A stretch of 60,985 nucleotides of DNA from Flavobacteriales bacterium (GTDB lineage Bacteria > Bacteroidota > Bacteroidia > Flavobacteriales_D > Crocinitomicaceae): the NCBI GenBank assembly GCA_013373595.1, contig JABXHO010000023.1, positions 1-60,985 of the forward strand, in the 5' to 3' direction. This document shows positions 4,840-40,525 of the stretch, in pieces. The translations under genes were made by a program, and so were the position numbers. Every line of letters starts with the position of its first letter. The first letter of the stretch is position 1. A model generated the notes under the pieces. The model saw nothing but the letters and a program-made list of their open reading frames with translations, made no database searches and was not told the origin of the DNA.

Positions 4840-5017
4840 CTTCAATTGTTGCCTTGATGACTGACTTAATCGATTAATTTTTTCTATTCAGTGATAGAAA
4901 TTGATGATTTATTAGGAAGGCGAAGTATTCAGAAAGTTTGAATGACCTCGTTCATAGATTCTTCCGTTTCTACGTTAAAACTTTTAACCAAAGCGACAGA
5001 TTAGATACTTTTCCTTT

Positions 5018-5677
5018 CTAATGTCCAATATTGTACGTGATTTTGAGTCCGTAGTTGTAATGATTAGACATTGGAATTACGTACTCTTTTATGTAATACT
5101 TAAATACAGGTTCAATGATGAAACTTGAATTCGGGACGTTAAATCCAATACTGATCATTGGAGCATAATTTAGTGTTGTGCCAGTTGGATTCTTCAGTTT
5201 TTCAATTTCTCCATTTCCATAATAGATGGTTCGCTCCGAATTATCCGCGAAAGAAGCGTTGAGTTCCATCCCTACAGTAAAAAATACGTTTGGCTTTATG
5301 TTGTATTGAAATAGCAGTGGCAGCTGCAATTCACTATACGTCATATCTGATTCCATTCTGGATTCAGTAGTTATTCCAGTTTGAGGATTGATGTCCGAAC
5401 TAAATATTAATCCTTCGTGCAGGTGATGATAATTCTTCAAACCGTAACCCAACCCTGTTCGTAACGATACTTTTTGCGTCAAACGAAATTCACCGTTAAA
5501 ACCAGCTGAGAAACCTAATTTTGAGCGTACGGTTTCCGTACCAACTTGACTTGTTGTGGTTAAACCATTCATCTCAGGCAAGACATAAGCCCCAAAATTG
5601 AACTTAGAATCATCTGTCGTTTCTTGAGAAAATGATAGTAATGGTAAGAAAAGTAAAGGGAGAAGAAGTTTATTCAT
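5018..5677 (-). CDS. outer-membrane beta-barrel protein
   Basis: 219 residues with a clear signal peptide (MNKLLLPLLFLPLLSFSQ) and then about eight amphipathic strands, for example VSLRTGLGYGLKNYHHL, YSELQLPLLFQYNIKPNVFF and a final YNYGLKITYNIGH. This is the small PorT/OmpW-like barrel layout frequent in Bacteroidota. No catalytic motif is seen. It stands alone between the MFS exporter and the large receptor gene, with about 170 bp of non-coding DNA on each side. The substrate is unknown. Confidence 0.75.
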   Translation of the reverse strand: MNKLLLPLLFLPLLSFSQETTDDSKFNFGAYVLPEMNGLTTTSQVGTETVRSKLGFSAGFNGEFRLTQKVSLRTGLGYGLKNYHHLHEGLIFSSDINPQTGITTESRMESDMTYSELQLPLLFQYNIKPNVFFTVGMELNASFADNSERTIYYGNGEIEKLKNPTGTTLNYAPMISIGFNVPNSSFIIEPVFKYYIKEYVIPMSNHYNYGLKITYNIGH

Positions 5678-31260: not shown

Positions 31261-32268
31261 TCAATCCTTCAATCGTTTCTCTTTCTTCTTTTCCTTTAAC
31301 CGAATTCCACCAACCAATTTCCATTGATAATAGATTTGATTGTAGCGCATTTCACGGAATCGGATCGATTTAATGTCGAAATCACTCACAATCCAGAAGA
31401 AATAATCTGGTTTCGAATATCCAGCAATTAATCGAAGGTCGATGCGTGGAGCTAAACCAAGAACACCTCGCGTAGTAGTTCCAAACGAATAGGTCTTCGC
31501 TTGTACTACGGCTCCAAGTCCTCCGAAGACAGAAAATTGCCAATTGTTGATCCGTCCAACGTATGCATATCCGGGCACAACTCCCAAATCCAAAGCGTTG
31601 ATGCTTTGTGCGAATGACTTGGATTGAGTGGTATCAATGAGTTCTTCTGGAGTTATTGCGTCCCATTTGTTGTTGATGCCAAATTGATTGAGAGTTCCTT
31701 TCACATAAATGGTGCCTTCTGGTTTCGTGTAATGTCCAACTTTTCCGAAAACAGCTGCCATTTTGAAATGATCATTGCGGAAATACCATCCATTAATCGA
31801 TAAGCTATGAGCGATGGTATTTGGACGAAATAAATGAGGACGTAAATCATTCAATGTGTCGTTCCAGTTTTTCGCATTCACGATAACAAAACCTTCGTTA
31901 TAGCGCCATTCAGCATCCCAAAAGGTTTTCTTTAAACTGAAGCTCGTTCCAATATTGAACAATTGAGATTTCCCAAATCGACTGTCGGGACGTAAGTTTC
32001 CTGGGATACCAAAACCTATTCGCAAACCGAACCATTTGTACTTGATCCCAAGCCCCATGGTAAGTTGAAGGTTGTGCTTGAATTTCAACTTCTTAACCCC
32101 TTCGTTATAATTGTCTTTGATAGAAAAAGGCGCAGAGTTGAATCCCAAATCACTAAACAATACAACACGTTCCTTGTACAATTGGTAAGGAATGGTATCG
32201 TTTGTCTCTTGGGAGTAGGATGATCCAATGGAAATCATCAGAAATAAGAAAACAATCCGCATTTTCAT
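31261..32268 (-). CDS. DUF4421 outer-membrane protein
   Basis: 335 residues from ATG 32268 with signal peptide (MKMRIVFLFLMISIGSSYSQ). The body consists of amphipathic strands with conserved FNSAPFSIKDN-like segments, GLGIKYKWFGLRIGFGIPG and the final YNQIYYQWKLVGGIRLK, as in the DUF4421 family of Bacteroidota barrels (function unknown). The start is fixed by TATTTTTG at 32273-32280, 4 nt upstream. It is the only minus-strand gene in this region; the stop lies 85 bp from the Fe-S operon. Confidence 0.78.
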   Translation of the reverse strand: MKMRIVFLFLMISIGSSYSQETNDTIPYQLYKERVVLFSDLGFNSAPFSIKDNYNEGVKKLKFKHNLQLTMGLGIKYKWFGLRIGFGIPGNLRPDSRFGKSQLFNIGTSFSLKKTFWDAEWRYNEGFVIVNAKNWNDTLNDLRPHLFRPNTIAHSLSINGWYFRNDHFKMAAVFGKVGHYTKPEGTIYVKGTLNQFGINNKWDAITPEELIDTTQSKSFAQSINALDLGVVPGYAYVGRINNWQFSVFGGLGAVVQAKTYSFGTTTRGVLGLAPRIDLRLIAGYSKPDYFFWIVSDFDIKSIRFREMRYNQIYYQWKLVGGIRLKEKKKEKRLKD

Positions 32269-32272
32269 CACG

Positions 32273-32280
32273 CAAAAATA
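32273..32280 (-). promoter_or_regulatory. -7 promoter box TATTTTTG, 4 nt before ATG
   Basis: TATTTTTG then CGTG then ATG 32268 on the minus strand; the predicted start site is the A of the start codon. Confidence 0.5.
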
Positions 32281-32412
32281 AGGAGAACTGCTCAATTAGT
32301 AAGAATTGCATTCTTTCAAGTTGTATTCAGTTTTTTCTCTTCTAAATGGATAAGATGAATTTTGAAAAGGCTGTTACTTTCTTGCCAGCGGGTTAATAAG
32401 TTCACGTTCGAA

Positions 32413-33243: not shown

Positions 33244-33580
33244 ATTGGTTCAAATAGGGCAGGCTTCGAGGGCATCAGTCCAATACCTTCGTGACGAATA
33301 AGTCGAGGCCTGAGGCGCTTGTAATCCGCTTTCTCATGGACAAAACTGGCTATTCGGGCATGCATCCGAATATCAGTAAATACTGCTTTTACTCAATGGA
33401 AAGGTTTAAATATTCGACGGGAAGTCCATTTTGATAATTGTTAATTTTCAGTTATTTTATATGTACGCATACTAAATTTAATTTTTTGGCGTTTTTATTG
33501 TAACGAAGTCAGAGTGGCTGAGTTATAGTACAAAGCCTGCAAGCTTTTAAACCAAACTAGAACAATTAAAACCAGAACTA
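33244..33580 (+). other. 350-bp non-coding stretch with inverted repeats upstream of the sigma factor
   Basis: No gene seen. Two structured parts: CAGGCTTCGA (33260-33269) pairs with TCGAGGCCTG (33303-33312) apart from one G-T, and TATTCGG (33351-33357) pairs with CCGAATA (33366-33372) across an 8-nt loop. The rest becomes AT-rich and should contain the sigma-factor promoter, though no TAnnTTTG box lies near the ATG. Possible leader RNA, small RNA or operator; strand is assumed. Confidence 0.4.
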
Positions 33581-34147
33581 ATGGCAGTGAATCCCATTTA
33601 CCACCAGACCAAATCTACGCTACTGCAAGAGCGTGATTGGATCTCGGAAGCGAAGAAGGATCCGGAGAAATTCGGTCCACTGTACACGAAGTATCATGAG
33701 CAGATATTTCGGTACGTCTATCAACGGATGGACGATCAAGAGCAAGCCTTTGATGTAACATCACAAGTGTTTATCAAAGCGTTAAGCAACTTGCACAAGT
33801 ATGAATTTAGAGGTGTTCCTTTCTCCTCTTGGTTGTACCGTATTGCTAAAAGCGAACTTTACCAGAGCTTTCGCGACCGTAAAGCAAGACGGACAGTCAA
33901 TGTAGATACAGTACACCTGGCAGATATTACCGAAGAATTCGATGATGACGAACTCCTAGCGGACAAAAGCAAACTACTTAAATGTTTGTCTCAACTCCGC
34001 GAAAATGATCTTCAGCTAATTGAACTCAGGTATTTTGAAAAACGCCCCTACAAGGAAATTGGTGAAATTCTCGATGTAACAGAGAACAATGCCAAAGTAA
34101 AAACCTTCAGAGCGTTGGAACGACTGAAAAAACAATTTTTGAAATAA
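33581..34147 (+). CDS. RNA polymerase sigma factor, ECF type
   Basis: 188 residues. Region 2 spans about 28-98 (EQIFRYVYQRMDDQEQAFDV, then FSSWLYRIAKSELYQSFRDR) and region 4 about 133-183 (LQLIELRYFEKRPYKEIGEI with the helix-turn-helix LDVTENNAKVKTFRALERL). The short length and the missing regions 1 and 3 mark an ECF sigma factor. It is 7 bp upstream of a single-pass membrane protein that probably controls it, and a PorG-like barrel gene follows. It may direct envelope or T9SS genes, as SigP does in Porphyromonas; that link is inference. Confidence 0.93.
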   Translation: MAVNPIYHQTKSTLLQERDWISEAKKDPEKFGPLYTKYHEQIFRYVYQRMDDQEQAFDVTSQVFIKALSNLHKYEFRGVPFSSWLYRIAKSELYQSFRDRKARRTVNVDTVHLADITEEFDDDELLADKSKLLKCLSQLRENDLQLIELRYFEKRPYKEIGEILDVTENNAKVKTFRALERLKKQFLK

Positions 34148-34154
34148 TAGTAAA

Positions 34155-35018
34155 ATGGAAAGAACTAAAACCACTTTGGACCGTGAACCGATGACTTCCG
34201 AGACGATCCGACAGAGGCAAAATTTCGATTACGTATTGAAACAAGCAGCTGCTGCGAAAGTCCCAATATGGAAGTCCATCTGGTTCTACGGACCAGTTGG
34301 AATCGCAATGGTAACCTTGGTCGTATCGGCCGTCAGAATGAACCCTAAAAATGAATTGGATGATAATAAAACTACTTTAGCTCAAAATAATGTAACAGGT
34401 TGGACAGGATCAACACAATTAGGTGAACTGGCAACTATTGAAAGTAAGTCTGATATCGAGGATATTGAGAACATCGAGAAAGAGTATACGGCAGAAAAGT
34501 CGTTCGAAGGCTCTATTCCAAACGAAATTCAACGACCAGCAAAAAATGAGAAACCAGCAGTTGTTGAAGATAATACTGTAACGCTCGAGGAGAATACTGA
34601 ATTGAAACCAGAAGTATTAACCGAAGAAAAAAATGTTGCCGATGAAAATCGGATCGAATCGAACAAAACAGTAGAAAAGAAGATTGCAGCACCGGTTGTT
34701 GAAACAAAGAGAGAAACAGTCAAGACAATGCCAAATGTCGCGGGAGTTTTCAATGGGAGAGTGTCACTCTATGATATGTGTTCTACAGGAATTTCGTGCA
34801 ATAATGGCTACCAAGTAGTTTCTTATGACATCCAATACGATAACGGTAGAGGAACAACAGTGGATCGTGTTTCAGGAGGTGCAATTCCTGAATATATCTG
34901 TAATAGTCTAAGACGTTACAATCTCGGAAGTCCAGTGTTTATCACACGAATCGTGGCAATGAATGAAAAAGGACAAACAAAACAGTTACTTTCTATGCAA
35001 ATTGAGCCAACCTTCTAA
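34155..35018 (+). CDS. single-pass membrane protein, probable anti-sigma/sensor with GldM-like end
   Basis: 287 residues. Residues 1-40 are cytosolic (RQRQNFDYVLKQAAAAKVP), 42-61 form one membrane helix (FYGPVGIAMVTLVVSAV), then comes an acidic periplasmic linker (about 70-190, rich in E, K and N) and a C-terminal domain (about 196-287: NGRVSLYDMCSTG, VSYDIQYDNGRGTTV, NSLRRYNLGSPVFITRIVAM and LLSMQIEPTF). The pattern of that last domain resembles the C-terminal domain of the gliding/T9SS protein GldM (PorM). Position after an ECF sigma gene suggests an anti-sigma factor whose periplasmic end senses the T9SS or the outer membrane. No zinc-binding anti-sigma motif is present. Confidence 0.6.
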   Translation: MERTKTTLDREPMTSETIRQRQNFDYVLKQAAAAKVPIWKSIWFYGPVGIAMVTLVVSAVRMNPKNELDDNKTTLAQNNVTGWTGSTQLGELATIESKSDIEDIENIEKEYTAEKSFEGSIPNEIQRPAKNEKPAVVEDNTVTLEENTELKPEVLTEEKNVADENRIESNKTVEKKIAAPVVETKRETVKTMPNVAGVFNGRVSLYDMCSTGISCNNGYQVVSYDIQYDNGRGTTVDRVSGGAIPEYICNSLRRYNLGSPVFITRIVAMNEKGQTKQLLSMQIEPTF

Positions 35019-35164
35019 ATTTGAATCCGTTTAATAAGTATATGAACGTATATCTTCGTTAACAGGTTCGTTTTAATAAAATGTCTTACCTATGTTTGGT
35101 AAAAACTTGAAACATTCCTATTTTCGTACTATATATACTAGAATAATCGTATTAAACCCAAACG

Positions 35165-36106
35165 ATGAAATTATTAACAAGCCTGGTACTACTCTTGTCT
35201 ACTGCATTAACGTATGCCCAGCACACCAATTTCAACTCCCAGCGTAATTGGTCCTTGAACAAAAAGGAAATTATGTTCGGTGGTGGAGCAACGCAGTTTC
35301 TTGGAGACTTAGGAGGGCGAGATCAAATAGGTAAGGATTACAGTTTGGCAGATTTAGATTTGCCTTCAACTAGTTGGAATGGAATGGTAGCATACCGTTA
35401 CCGCTTTCATCCATACTGGGCAACAACTAGCGTTCTTAATGTTGGAATGATTCGCGGAAACGATGCACTCACAAACGAAATCATTCGTGAATCGAGAAAT
35501 TTGCATTTCCGATCTATCATCGTGGAGTTCGAGCAACGTATCGAATGTATCATTTTGGCAAATGAAAAATTTGGTGCTCGATACAGAATCCCAGGAATGA
35601 AAGGATTCAAAAATCACAACGAACAAGTGTATTTGTTTACAGGAGTTGGAGTTAGTTACTTTAACCCAAAAGCAATGTACAACGGTTCATGGACGGCACT
35701 TCGCCCGTTGAGAACGGAAGGTCAAGGTTTGGCCGAAGGTCCAGATGAATACCTTCCTGTTACGCCAACGATTCCTTTTGGTATCGGTTTGCGTATGGGA
35801 ATTGGACGTATGTGGCGTATCGGAATTGAGGCAACATATGTGAAAACATTCTCTGATTATATTGATGATGTAAGTGGAACGTACTACGATCCAAACGCAT
35901 TGGCTTCTCAAGTGAGTCCAACAGCAGCATATTTGTCGAATCCAGCAGTAGAAAATGCTACATGGTTTGCTGCAGGTCAGCAACGTGGAGACAGGCAAAA
36001 AGATGCTTATTTCTACTTAAACTTGGTATTCGCACGAAACATTACATACAAAGATTACGCAAAAGCAAGAAGAGCTCCACGTTGGAAAGGACGTTACAAG
36101 TTCTAA
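35165..36106 (+). CDS. PorG/DUF6089-like outer-membrane barrel
   Basis: 313 residues with signal peptide (MKLLTSLVLLLSTALTYA). The mature part starts with the family-type segment EIMFGGGATQFLGDLGG and AYRYRFHPYWATT, then several long amphipathic strands and a basic end (RRAPRWKGRYKF). The pattern fits the DUF6089/PorG-like barrels; PorG in Porphyromonas ties the outer membrane to the T9SS PorK-PorN ring. Function here is inferred. It lies 146 bp after the sigma/anti-sigma pair and ends in a strong terminator, so it may be the third gene of that unit or a separate one. Confidence 0.65.
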   Translation: MKLLTSLVLLLSTALTYAQHTNFNSQRNWSLNKKEIMFGGGATQFLGDLGGRDQIGKDYSLADLDLPSTSWNGMVAYRYRFHPYWATTSVLNVGMIRGNDALTNEIIRESRNLHFRSIIVEFEQRIECIILANEKFGARYRIPGMKGFKNHNEQVYLFTGVGVSYFNPKAMYNGSWTALRPLRTEGQGLAEGPDEYLPVTPTIPFGIGLRMGIGRMWRIGIEATYVKTFSDYIDDVSGTYYDPNALASQVSPTAAYLSNPAVENATWFAAGQQRGDRQKDAYFYLNLVFARNITYKDYAKARRAPRWKGRYKF

Positions 36107-36190: not shown

Positions 36191-37222
36191 ATGTTCAAAC
36201 TTATTCGATCCTTTCTCTTTTTATTTGACCCAGAAAAAGTGCACTATGCAACCATGAAAATGATTCGCATTACACTGAAATTACCGGGTATGAAATCACT
36301 CTGGCGAAAGCTCTACAGAGTAGATAACCCCGCATTGAAGCGTGAATTATTCGGGTTGACATTCGATAATCCTGTTGGGTTGGCAGCAGGTTTCGATAAG
36401 AATGCGAGTATGTACAACGATTTGGCGTATTGTGGATTCGGTTTTATTGAAATCGGAACGGTTACACCAGTTGGACAAGATGGAAATCCAAAACCCCGTT
36501 TGTTTCGCCTAAAGGAAGATAGTGCCATTATCAACCGAATGGGATTCAACAATGCTGGTGTCGATGCAGCAGTAGAGCAGCTGAAACAGCGAAAGACAGA
36601 TTTAATCATCGGAGGAAATATCGGAAAAAATAAAGTCACTCCAAATGAAGAAGCGACAAGTGATTATGTCAAATCTTTCGAAAAACTCTTTCCATACGTG
36701 GATTACTTTGTCGTGAATGTTTCTTCACCGAACACACCGAATTTACGCTCTCTTCAAGAGAAAGAACCACTTACAGAGTTGCTCAGAACACTTCAGAATC
36801 TCAACGATAAAAAAGAAAAGCGAAAGCCTATTTTGCTGAAAATTGCTCCAGATTTGACGAATGAGCAGTTGGATGACATTATCGAAATTGTGGATGACGT
36901 GAAACTCGATGGTGTGATTGCAACCAACACAACCATTAGTCGCGAAGGTTTGAAAACAAGCACAGATCGCGTGGAGGAAATTGGAGCAGGTGGTTTGTCT
37001 GGGAAGCCAGTAAAAAATCGATCAACAGAAGTGATTCGTTATCTCGCAACAAAATCGAATAAATCATTCCCGATTATCGGAGTCGGAGGGATTCATTCTG
37101 CCGAAGATGCACTCGAAAAACTAGATGCAGGAGCAGATCTTCTTCAAGTTTATACAGGATTTATTTACGAAGGACCGCGACTACTAAAACAAATCAATCA
37201 GGCGATTCTTGCACGCGGGTAA
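36191..37222 (+). CDS. pyrD: dihydroorotate dehydrogenase (quinone), class 2
   Basis: 343 residues. The N-terminal helices (residues 1-40, [20 protein letters not shown]) dock on the membrane, as in class 2 enzymes. The barrel follows with [44 protein letters not shown], the catalytic-Ser region [25 protein letters not shown] and [19 protein letters not shown]. It oxidises dihydroorotate to orotate with quinone in pyrimidine synthesis. The start codon is preceded by a short AGGT. The gene is followed by HMG-CoA lyase after 26 bp. Confidence 0.96.
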
Positions 37223-37248
37223 TTCGCGAATAAAGACTATTTTTAACT

Positions 37249-38100
37249 ATGGAAAATGTGAAACTGATTGAATGTCCACGCGACGCAATGCAAGGACTTC
37301 ATGATTTTATACCAACGGAAGATAAAATTAGGTACATCAATACCTTGTTAACGTGTGGATTCGATACGATTGACTTTGGAAGTTTTGTTTCCCCAAAAGC
37401 GATTCCTCAAATGCGCGATACTGCTCAAGTATTGGAAGGGTTGAATCAGTCGGAAAGTAAACTACTCGCAATTGTAGCGAATGAACGTGGAGCAAATGAT
37501 GCTTCAGCCTTCGATCGGATTGATTATTTGGGGTATCCATTTTCGGTTTCAGAAGAGTTTCAGAAACGAAACACAAACGCAACCATAGATGAATCATTCG
37601 AGCGAGTGGAGCGCATCCAAGAAATTGCAACGAAGAGCAATAAGGAATTGGTTCTCTATCTTTCGATGGGATTTGGAAATCCTTACGGAGAAGAATGGCA
37701 TCCTGACATCGTTACGGCGTGGTGCGAGAAGCTCTACACAAAGTTAGATGTTAAAATCCAGGCACTTTCCGACACGATTGGAGCGGGAACCCCTGAAATC
37801 GTTTCTTCATTGTTTGAAACACTCATCCCAAGCTTGACGGATGTTTCATTCGGAGCGCATCTCCACACAATTCCTGAAAATGCGAAGCATTTAATTGCAG
37901 CTGCCTATCAGGGTGGTTGTCGAAGATTTGACGGAGCGATCAAAGGATTTGGAGGTTGCCCGATGGCTAAAGACGACTTAACAGGGAACATGCCTACCGA
38001 GCGCATGTTGGAATGGTTCCAAGAAAACGCCATCGAAACTGGAGTAAATGAAGAGCGTTTCAACGAATCGATGACGGAAGCGCTGAAAGTATTTCCGTAA
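37249..38100 (+). CDS. hydroxymethylglutaryl-CoA lyase
   Basis: 283 residues. The TIM-barrel of the HMGL/DRE group is recognisable by ECPRDAMQG at the start (catalytic Arg and Asp), SFVSPKAIPQMRDTAQVL, LSDTIGAGTPEIV and the signature GFGGCPMAKDDLTGNMPTE, containing the active-site Cys. It splits HMG-CoA into acetoacetate and acetyl-CoA in leucine breakdown. The first residues ENVKLIECPRD are short compared with human HMGCL because there is no transit peptide. Distance to pyrD (26 bp) permits co-transcription without metabolic link. Confidence 0.92.
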   Translation: MENVKLIECPRDAMQGLHDFIPTEDKIRYINTLLTCGFDTIDFGSFVSPKAIPQMRDTAQVLEGLNQSESKLLAIVANERGANDASAFDRIDYLGYPFSVSEEFQKRNTNATIDESFERVERIQEIATKSNKELVLYLSMGFGNPYGEEWHPDIVTAWCEKLYTKLDVKIQALSDTIGAGTPEIVSSLFETLIPSLTDVSFGAHLHTIPENAKHLIAAAYQGGCRRFDGAIKGFGGCPMAKDDLTGNMPTERMLEWFQENAIETGVNEERFNESMTEALKVFP

Positions 38101-38170
38101 CTTTCCGTTATTGTTGAATTATAGGTGTGAAATTCATCCTGTAAAGAAATTGAACCGCATATCGTACGAC

Positions 38171-38836
38171 ATGAAGAAATCAATAAAATATAGTTTTCCT
38201 TTAATGCTTCTAATCGGCATTTTCGTATTTGTTGGATGCGCGAGTGAAGAGGAAGAGAAACCCAAAAAGCCTGCAGAAGAGATTTATTTTGAGGGAGTAG
38301 CAACAAAATTTGAAGGGGAGAAGTTCAAAAATACGATCGAAGAAGATTTATTGAAAGAGTTGGGCGTGTGTGAGTTTGGATCAAGCGATTCTACTTATTA
38401 CGCTACTTGTTCTCCTGAGAATTTCAAAATTTCAGCCTACAAGAATGAAGGAAGTTTGAAAGATGCCTTTATTTTGGAAATGAAAGCGGGAATTTTTCCA
38501 AAAAATGCGGAAGCTCCACTGCCTCCTGTTCGTCACGTGATTGTTTTCGAAAGAGAAGGTGGAGAGTTAGTGAAAGTAGGAGGGTTCCGTGGAAATTTAA
38601 TTGGAATGCGCCCAAATAAAGCGTCTGGAGCGAAAGATCTGTTGATGGCTTTGTACGATACGGATGATGAAACACTTTTTCACTGTGTATTCAAGTGGAA
38701 CGGAGCGAAATACGAGTTTCACTCAATCGAGCGCATGGACTACGGAGATGGTTTTAGAACGATAAAGGGCGAAAACAAATTGGAGACCACTCAACAGATT
38801 TACCAACAGCTTCGCGATAAATCCCTCATTTTCTAG
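38171..38836 (+). CDS. lipoprotein of unknown function
   Basis: 221 residues from ATG 38171 (MKKSIKYSFPLMLLIGIFVF); a longer frame from 38111 has no signal value. The lipobox is FVGC (Cys about 19-22), followed by an acidic, Lys-rich spacer (ASEEEEKPKKPAEEIYFEG). The body is mixed alpha/beta with a central Cys pair region (LGVCEFGSSDSTYYATCSPE) and no known catalytic motif. It is coupled to the next small lipoprotein, which starts at the stop codon. I cannot assign a role. Confidence 0.65.
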   Translation: MKKSIKYSFPLMLLIGIFVFVGCASEEEEKPKKPAEEIYFEGVATKFEGEKFKNTIEEDLLKELGVCEFGSSDSTYYATCSPENFKISAYKNEGSLKDAFILEMKAGIFPKNAEAPLPPVRHVIVFEREGGELVKVGGFRGNLIGMRPNKASGAKDLLMALYDTDDETLFHCVFKWNGAKYEFHSIERMDYGDGFRTIKGENKLETTQQIYQQLRDKSLIF

Positions 38837-39264
38837 TGAAACGATTTGCTTTTCTTTTGTTGGTACTCACAAGCTGCACGGCGGGTGTGGAGTTGAAGGA
38901 AGTCGAATATGACTACCTCATGAATGATGGGAACAGCAAGGTGTGGATGATCGATCAAATGATTGTGAAAAATAGTAACATTGCTTCTCCATTCGATTCC
39001 GAAAAAGAACTACTTATTTTCTATCAGTCGGGTAGATTTCAATACATTCCTGTAAAACAATTGGGACATCAAAATGGGAAAGTGGGGAACTATGTGCTCT
39101 TTTCCAAAGAGAAAGAATTAAAACTCTATTTCAAAAAGAAATTGTGGCATTTCGCAATGACAGAAATAAGCGAGGACGCAATTACCCTGGTTCCAGTTGA
39201 AAACTCAGATGAACAGTTCACGCTCAAACTCATTCCACTAAAGGAATTGTTTCAAGTCAATTAA
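38836..39264 (+). CDS. small lipoprotein of unknown function
   Basis: 142 residues from GTG 38836, whose first G is the last base of the preceding TAG stop, so translation is coupled. The signal MKRFAFLLLVLTSC ends in a lipobox Cys. The rest is a compact beta-rich domain (KVWMIDQMIVKNS, LLIFYQSGRFQYIPVKQLG, KKKLWHFAMTEISED). It resembles small Bacteroidota lipocalin-like or DUF-type proteins, but no family is certain. Confidence 0.6.
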   Translation: MKRFAFLLLVLTSCTAGVELKEVEYDYLMNDGNSKVWMIDQMIVKNSNIASPFDSEKELLIFYQSGRFQYIPVKQLGHQNGKVGNYVLFSKEKELKLYFKKKLWHFAMTEISEDAITLVPVENSDEQFTLKLIPLKELFQVN

Positions 39265-39325: not shown

Positions 39326-40525
39326 ATGCGCGTACTCACAGTTTTATTTTTATTGACTCTCTTTAAATCTACAGCTCAGGACACTCTTACTTCATATTAT
39401 CCTTCAGGTGCACTGCGTTCCATTGAATATCGGGGAGAATCTTTACGCACCAGAAGAGATCTGGAACTCCCGACCCGAATTGTGTACAACGAAGATTCCT
39501 CTGTCTATTGTAAATTGTTTGTGGGTGGGATAAGAAATAATCGCGTAATACTAAAGAAACGTATTTGGTATGAGGACGATGTCCCTGTTTTCGGTGAAAG
39601 CAGTCATTGCCACAATTATTTTTTTGAAGAGGGTAAGCTGATTCGAAAAACAACTAGAAATGCGGATACCTACGTTCAGTCAAGTTGTGATGAAAAATTT
39701 GAACCACGCTCATACAGTGTGGAAGAAGGTACCTTCCAAGATTACATTCTTCATAATGGCACGATTTCTTACTACACTGCGAATAATAAATTGACCTCTA
39801 AGATTCACGTTCGTAACGGTTACAGACAGAGTGATGCCGTGGTTTATTTCAAAGACTCTACCTTTTTTTGGCAACTAAGAGATATGCCGAATCGGGTGGA
39901 TTTGAACGAGAATAATCACATTGAAAAGTCTGAAGCTTCTTGCGTCATACGCTTAGAGATAAAAAAACGGGTCACGGATTTTACAGGAATTCAACACTTT
40001 GTCAATTTGCGATCGATCAAATATCTCGGAACTTCCGTGGATGTTTCTAAGTATGCTTCATTTTCACAATTAATTGCCAAACTGAAAACAATTAAAAGTC
40101 CAAGGCGTAATAATCGATTGAGACGGTATTATGAAGAGGTGCCGCCGTTTGATCCTAATCCTTGCCGATGTACAGGAAGTGATGTGAAACCGATGGCTTA
40201 TCCAGCGGAAATTCATGAGTTTGTGGAAGTGGAGGCAAGCTTCGTCGGTGGACAAAAAGCTCTTCAAGTGTGGTTAGATACGAACATCGTTCTTCCTGAG
40301 AGTTCAATCTGGAAAGTGGAGAATCAAGGAAGGGTCTATGTTGAGTTTGTGGTAGAAAAAGACGGTTCAATAACGAATGTCAGAATCATTAAGTCGCTCT
40401 CTAGAGAAATAGACATACAAGCGAAACGACTCGTTAAGAAAATGCCGCCATGGATTCCAGCCGAACAAGACGGTATCATTGTACGAAGTCGAGTTCGTAT
40501 GCCAATTGAATACTTACCTAAGTAG
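39326..40525 (+). CDS. TonB-C-domain protein with MORN-, EF-hand- and LRR-like parts
   Basis: 399 residues with a short signal peptide (MRVLTVLFLLTLFKSTA). The first half carries MORN-type lines (LTSYYPSGALRSIEYRGES, and again around TISYYTANNKLTSKIHV), then an EF-hand-like loop (DLNENNHIEKSE near residue 192), a leucine-rich stretch (VTDFTGIQHFVNLRSIKYLG) and finally a TonB C-terminal-like domain (about 310-399: FVGGQKALQVWLDTNIVLP, VYVEFVVEKDGSITNVRIIK). There is no ExbB/ExbD nearby and no N-terminal cytosolic anchor like normal TonB. It probably lies in the periplasm. Confidence 0.65.
   Translation: MRVLTVLFLLTLFKSTAQDTLTSYYPSGALRSIEYRGESLRTRRDLELPTRIVYNEDSSVYCKLFVGGIRNNRVILKKRIWYEDDVPVFGESSHCHNYFFEEGKLIRKTTRNADTYVQSSCDEKFEPRSYSVEEGTFQDYILHNGTISYYTANNKLTSKIHVRNGYRQSDAVVYFKDSTFFWQLRDMPNRVDLNENNHIEKSEASCVIRLEIKKRVTDFTGIQHFVNLRSIKYLGTSVDVSKYASFSQLIAKLKTIKSPRRNNRLRRYYEEVPPFDPNPCRCTGSDVKPMAYPAEIHEFVEVEASFVGGQKALQVWLDTNIVLPESSIWKVENQGRVYVEFVVEKDGSITNVRIIKSLSREIDIQAKRLVKKMPPWIPAEQDGIIVRSRVRMPIEYLPK

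Follow-up and report, generated by a model that had tools for sequence, protein, structure and literature searches.

How Bacteroidota set the number of their type IX secretion (T9SS) and gliding motors is an open question; the locus described here suggests that a cell may gauge the state of its own secretion motors. The window, i.e. the whole stretch of DNA that was analysed, is a contig of 60,985 bases from a genome of 4.69 Mb belonging to Crocinitomicaceae, a family within Flavobacteriales. Three successive open reading frames (ORFs) in it are a sigma gene (33581–34147), a gene for a 287-residue protein (34155–35018) and a barrel gene (35165–36106), confirming an earlier note on this DNA that had observed a sigma gene, a single-pass protein and a PorG-like barrel in succession. 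The nearest copies among named contigs come from metagenome genomes labelled Fluviicola, Crocinitomicaceae, Flavobacteriales or Bacteroidetes.

The first gene (33581–34147, plus strand) encodes an ECF sigma factor of 188 aa; Pfam places regions 2 and 4 (Sigma70_r2 and Sigma70_r4, both above cut-off) at residues 34–101 and 131–182, with little in between. The gap to the membrane-protein gene is 7 bases. At a threshold of 1e-25 the sigma factor had no match in 15 listed genomes of the order's other families, and four genomes of family f9 gave a distant match. A paralogous ECF sigma factor, 48% identical, is encoded on contig C174 of the same genome (L252; 5190–5759, minus strand). It is followed by a 74-residue one-helix protein (4984–5208, minus strand) whose tail resembles that of the window's membrane protein and which, from its sequence, is perhaps a minimal anti-sigma factor; a PorP/SprF-like gene and a large TPR-like gene, labels that come from reading the ORFs, lie nearby. 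With regard to the surroundings in the window, a DUF4421 protein (Pfam, 1.3e-15) is encoded at 31261–32295 on the minus strand. Downstream, 36191–38100 holds a dihydroorotate dehydrogenase gene (Pfam) and an HMG-CoA-lyase-like gene (label by reading), a pair found 3' of the cluster in many of the relatives read, also where the anti-sigma-like protein and the barrel have been lost. Two small genes at 38111–39264, the first lipoprotein-like by eye and without a Pfam match, appear to follow the two enzyme genes again in a number of relatives (such as L049, L103, L235 and L238), and 39326–40525 encodes a protein with a TonB_C end (above cut-off) and weak MORN_2-like matches (Pfam).

To understand what the locus may do, the C-terminal part of the second protein is the natural starting point. 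Residues 187–287 (34713–35015, plus strand) are homologous to domain 4 of GldM/PorM (PF12080) by profile and adopt the same fold, at an identity to PorM of only about 14–15%. The window sequence alone scored 17.0 bits against PF12080, below the gathering score of 24.6, and the 287-aa protein as a lone query against Pfam, NCBIfam and the PDB returned no result. The resemblance to the last GldM/PorM domain, which the earlier note had proposed from pattern reading, is hence borne out by profile and by fold, and the structure and profile comparison suggested there as a check found domain 4 rather than an unrelated fold; we regard this assignment as almost certain. The protein is no full GldM/PorM: it has 287 aa, contains domain 4 only and lacks domains 1–3, and separate full GldM genes lie on contigs C101 and C5 of the genome (NCBIfam). 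Two copies of GldM are common among genomes of the genus, and in several of these both copies lie within one cluster. A pair of cysteines is co-conserved in domain 4 of this family (both present in 20, neither in 15 and a single one in 1 of 36 sequences) and is absent, as judged by eye, from 16 aligned GldM copies. The note had also named the last GldM domain as the contact to the outer-membrane ring of the motor; this can be refined, as the accessible text of PMC5790014 reports that PorM D4 alone suffices for binding PorN, a component of the ring, in two-hybrid tests. Moreover, the tip of PorM is predicted, with weak confidence, to sit in the cleft between PorN copies mostly via domain 4 (PMC12635249, available parts).

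The remainder of the membrane protein (34155–35018, plus strand) has the layout of an anti-sigma factor, being coupled to a sigma gene and having a cytosolic N-terminus and one helix, a topology taken from the sequence and a low-confidence model. Its cytosolic tail, residues 1–43 (34155–34283, plus strand), is the predicted sigma-binding element: in an alignment of 20 proteins of several architectures R10, F24 and F44 are invariant and I18, P37, K40 and W43 nearly so. The tail is kept alone in L238, L240 and L251, lineages without domain 4, and in L240 even without the helix. Since it is both well conserved and able to survive alone, it looks like a sigma-holding element. The transmembrane helix was placed from the sequence at residues ~44–62 (34284–34340, plus strand) and appears at residues 46–61 in a single-sequence fold model, which is of little use overall (pLDDT 47.9). 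It leads into a periplasmic linker, residues 63–186 (34341–34712, plus strand), which is rich in E, K, P and T and shows hardly any conservation among homologues; together with a pLDDT below 50 over residues 55–202 in the same model, this suggests that the linker is probably disordered. A phylum-wide search with the tail gave matches in 39 of 395 genomes; apart from those in the window's own genome and G054, the matches listed were confined to positions 17–78 and lay mostly in ORFs of at least 900 aa, one of which (L050) is a histidine kinase. Because the matches listed mainly cover the helix part, the search at its given sensitivity offers no indication that the system exists beyond near relatives.

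Next we consider how the parts are combined among relatives, for which the stretches around the locus were read in 69 genomes. The fused form (tail, helix, linker and domain 4 in one protein) occurs in 32 of them. All 32 have the sigma gene and 31 the PorG-like barrel, the remaining locus being cut by a contig end, and the order sigma, fused protein, barrel recurs; the pairing that the note wished to see surveyed across neighbourhoods is therefore conserved. Thirteen genomes have a split form instead, in which a long protein (~540–616 aa) with the same tail and helix is accompanied by a separate domain-4 gene, whose product mostly comprises ~125–150 aa with a signal-like start by eye (277–291 aa in two). 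As relatives make both parts separately, the window's fused protein joins two proteins. The barrel is also present in 5 of the 13 split-form genomes. In 5 of the 69 the long protein, intact or broken, was seen and the stretch read contained no domain-4 gene, although for three of these (G040, G061 and G088) that stretch was short; the named contigs L102 and L100, matching G040 and G088, do show a domain-4 gene and a barrel. One further genome has the domain only. Domain 4 is absent from the stretch read in 18 genomes, 7 with only a short tail-like protein and 11 in which no such protein was found, which indicates that domain 4 is not essential to the work of the sigma factor. In one split-form locus (G098; L037:3990–4847) a GldK-like (FGE-sulfatase) protein is encoded between the long protein and the domain-4 gene; it matches the NCBIfam GldK model at 6.2e-27 with 94.9 of 350 bits. 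The profile of the long proteins had a best E value of 0.21 against the PDB, and no Pfam family was common to two of their members.

Upstream of the sigma gene the alignment of relatives reveals a predicted ECF-type promoter, TTGTAAC-N17-GTTATA (33498–33527, plus strand), common to the sigma upstream regions in otherwise much less conserved DNA. Of 70 distinct upstream regions, 21 match its core, TGTAAC-N16-18-GTTATA, perfectly and 23 with a single mismatch, i.e. 44 of 70 at no more than one mismatch compared with 0.5% of shuffles. Two of the 70 regions belong to other sigma genes (L252 and L261), leaving 68 loci of the window's sigma, and some rows use a start codon possibly too far upstream. 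A second conserved block, TATGTACGCATACTAAA (33460–33476, plus strand), lies upstream of the promoter; it occurs once in the window, is partly palindromic and is conserved like the promoter, and from its sequence it may be the site of a second regulator. That the motif belongs to the C174 paralogue was considered and rejected, since the paralogue's own upstream region lacks the element (three mismatches at best); the paralogue might nevertheless use the sites.

The promoter also bears on whether the membrane protein acts on the sigma factor at all, because it could be a T9SS accessory or assembly protein that is merely co-transcribed with the sigma gene. Pfam and NCBIfam detect no known anti-sigma domain in the tail or in the long-form proteins, as would be expected of such a protein. 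Against this, the tail is conserved across all architectures and kept alone where domain 4 is lost, and the sigma promoter core tends to be kept together with the membrane protein: it is found with at most one mismatch in 40 of the 52 loci that have either domain 4 or a long protein, be it complete, truncated or broken, but in only 4 of the 16 without. We therefore consider an accessory role very improbable, and judge the membrane protein from its sequence features to be very probably an anti-sigma factor.

To determine which genes the sigma factor might serve, we looked at where its element occurs. The pattern TTGTAACN{16,18}GTTATA has three matches in the 4.69 Mb genome and the control pattern two. 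One of the three exact sites is that at the sigma gene and the other two both lie at T9SS core genes: the site on C101 precedes gldK of a porP-gldK-gldL-gldM-gldN-gldN-like cluster, and that on C129 lies between a PorU-like and a PorP/SprF-like gene, the latter being followed by a gldJ/K-like lipoprotein gene (GldM was assigned by NCBIfam, while the names gldK, gldL, gldN, gldJ, porP and porU are readings of the ORFs). A relaxed motif was not enriched in this genome (10 matches versus 15 for the control), and downstream of its matches only the two T9SS sites were informative. The stretch surrounding the bona fide porG showed no site with one mismatch or fewer.

Among 54 genomes of the family (G000–G053) we counted 95 exact sites, 35 of them before gldK, 8 before the window's sigma gene, 7 before PorP_b, 2 before a gldJ-like gene, 2 before other ECF sigma genes and 41 elsewhere, with PorP-like and GldK-like genes assigned by phmmer against the ORFs of the window's genome and with a contig-end site of G031 placed among the others though equal to the gldK site of G019. 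The motif itself is hardly enriched, as its reversed control has 76 matches; chance can explain the 41 sites elsewhere, and it is the placement of the sites, not their number, that constitutes the signal. The sites in relatives are inherited and do not represent independent trials, and 7 of 128 promoter matches (three in G117, two each in G091 and G120) stand outside the counts. Within the genus an exact site precedes gldK in 27 of 34 genomes, four more (G001, G003, G011 and G029) have one mismatch (ATGTAAC), G031 carries the G019 site at the end of a contig, and in G013 and G024 the contig begins inside the gldK cluster. For 28 regions upstream of gldK that were picked by position, some of them precisely for lacking the exact form, a perfect core was seen in 14, a single mismatch in 7 and two mismatches in 7, always 54–78 nt before the gene; the corresponding frequencies in shuffles were 0%, 0.7% and 5.4%. 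Outside the genus gldK was located in 42 family genomes, of which 8 have the exact site and 22 of the other 34 were examined; the 12 left out are G035, G040, G054, G058, G060 and G070–G076, and the exact-site search did not extend to G054–G077.

Presence of the gldK site and of a close sigma copy do not coincide everywhere. The gldK upstream region of 12 genomes without a close copy has two mismatches in 2, three in 7, four in 2 and five in 1, and the two-mismatch, ECF-like elements suggest that another sigma factor may serve gldK there. The gldK site is present in G034 and G056, where the best match to the sigma factor is 43% and 40%; the exception is partly eased for G034, whose sigma factor has more in common with the window's (73 identical of 173 aligned residues) than with the C174 paralogue (54 of 169). 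The site is also kept in G002 and G008, and with one mismatch in G003, which are less complete assemblies without a close sigma copy. The two f3 genomes read (G091 and G102) have TGAAAC in the gldK element and TGTAAC in the sigma factor's own promoter. As a separate observation, TTGTAAC-N18-GTTATA stands 39–119 nt before a gene (MRQLKITK...) in L132, L204, L205 and L207, three of these four genomes lying outside the family; from its sequence this gene may encode the primary sigma factor. Taken together, the placement of the element makes it likely that T9SS core genes, namely the gldK-L-M-N cluster and the PorP/gldJ-like pair, belong to the predicted regulon of the sigma factor.

This regulon also has to be set against the idea that domain 4 is a disused part of GldM that has acquired another ligand, so that a true sigma/anti-sigma pair would make no contact with the T9SS and the T9SS regulon would have a separate history. 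The low identity to PorM would fit, and so would G043, G023 and G051, which have dropped the domain and kept both the sigma gene and the gldK site. Yet the neighbours and predicted targets are themselves relatives of T9SS components (the PorG-like barrel, the GldK-like protein in one genome, the gldK cluster and the PorP/gldJ-like pair), and we find this idea improbable.

The third gene (35165–36106, plus strand) encodes a PorG-like outer-membrane barrel of 313 aa. The note had called it PorG-like, which holds in so far as it is a homologous barrel; it is a paralogue rather than PorG itself, an identification that was rejected because the protein scores 59.9 bits against NF052316 (NCBIfam PorG; cut-off 130), lacks the tail cysteine and coexists with a bona fide PorG on C168 (168.5 bits). 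A PorG match above the cut-off was found in 55 of 60 genomes. Cysteine is absent from the last 60 residues in 33 of 33 distinct near members of the PorG-like family and present there in 11 of 11 bona fide PorG proteins read. In F. johnsoniae this tail cysteine bonds GldK, according to the available parts of PMC12635249, so the known link to the track is not available to the PorG-like barrel. Before the barrel gene lies a near-housekeeping-type element, TTTG-N20-TAnnTTCG (35095–35126, plus strand), which is partly conserved in the alignment; with one match in the window and 0.37 expected by chance it is weak alone, and from the sequence the barrel gene may be transcribed from a separate promoter.

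In FecI/FecR/FecA surface signalling, an ECF sigma factor, a one-helix anti-sigma factor with a periplasmic C-terminal domain and an outer-membrane barrel are encoded in one cluster. By analogy, the barrel could be a receptor, domain 4 no more than the periplasmic contact between barrel and anti-sigma factor, the signal a cue from outside or from the envelope rather than the state of the secretion motor, and the T9SS genes the output. The adjacency of the barrel in 31 of 32 fused loci speaks for such an arrangement, as do its missing bond to the track and the cysteine pair that sets many domain-4 copies apart from GldM. It sits poorly with the 7 loci read from families f3, f10 and f11, where stretches of 4.5–9.5 kb around the long protein or the domain-4 gene showed no barrel, with the possible separate promoter of the barrel gene and with the finding that Pfam detects no signalling or plug domain in the barrel. 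Surface signalling of this kind appears unlikely to us.

The explanation that we prefer, and to which we lean with moderate confidence, is a T9SS-docked anti-sigma factor that controls T9SS core genes together with its own operon. The tail would hold the sigma factor, and the domain-4 arm would span the periplasm and dock, like the tip of a motor arm, on the ring or track of the T9SS (GldN-GldK) or on a complex with the PorG-like barrel; anchored in the inner membrane, the linker of ~125 residues could let domain 4 reach a PorN-type ring. Whether the sigma factor is released would depend on how the arm is docked (too few rings, free sites, or stalled machines), in the simplest case because docking or its absence alters the hold of the tail on the sigma factor, and the freed sigma factor would transcribe its own operon and the T9SS core genes. 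The direction could be either way, with activation by shortage or by working machines. The earlier reading as a T9SS-sensing system gains from domain 4 and the conserved pairing, and is strengthened by the promoter element at the sigma gene, gldK-L-M-N and the PorP/gldJ-like pair; direct sensing of the secretion machine is a step for which we would claim only slightly better than even prospects. More tentative, and on balance doubtful, is the thought that the anti-sigma factor is a dummy motor arm whose domain 4 competes with the GldM arm on the GldK-GldN track, with the PorG-like barrel as a track-decoupled reporter. Such an arm might count free or unpowered track and free the sigma factor to build more, or stop when machines suffice; if so, the secretion machine would set its own copy number via a borrowed motor piece. 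Sensor and output are tied by sequence, with a motor domain on the anti-sigma side and motor/ring genes on the promoter side, which makes the predicted feedback loop directly testable.

Among known systems, several come close to parts of the locus. Domain 4 shares profile, fold and periplasmic location with that of GldM/PorM; the window's copy is carried by a short one-helix protein beside a sigma gene and has an added cysteine pair. The barrel is homologous to PorG but falls below the 130-bit cut-off, has no tail cysteine and coexists with a bona fide PorG. The FecI/FecR/FecA layout recurs here with a GldM-type periplasmic domain, a PorG-type barrel in which no plug was found, and a predicted T9SS regulon. 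No anti-sigma factor with a GldM-like domain was found in full-text literature searches, which covered a minority of the subscription papers. For SigP of Porphyromonas gingivalis, control of T9SS genes by an ECF sigma factor is established (PMC4800418); SigP drives such genes, among them the porP-porK-porL-porM-porN operon, as well as the gene that encodes it (PMC4800418, PMC7712824). Compared by description, an ECF sigma factor driving T9SS genes and its own gene is common to both systems. SigP, however, is under two-component control (PorX/PorY) and bound by PorX, the accessible parts of these two papers describe no anti-sigma factor for it, and the motif reported for it, C(T)AAA(G/C/T)A(T)A(C)T(A/G)A, is not the same as the element of the window; the activator of the sensor kinase PorY was still to be determined according to the 2020 paper (PMC7712824). 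For Flavobacterium psychrophilum ECF control of T9SS genes has been proposed together with the sigma/anti-sigma pair THC0290_1774/1773, and the SM6 promoters there carry an ECF-type CGT box before the PorG homologue, GldN, PorU and the sigma/anti-sigma pair (PMC9723704); the anti-sigma factor THC0290_1773 is set beside the window's protein by its published description only. ECF control of T9SS genes was thus already known in P. gingivalis or proposed in F. psychrophilum, and what is new here is the nature of the putative sensor.
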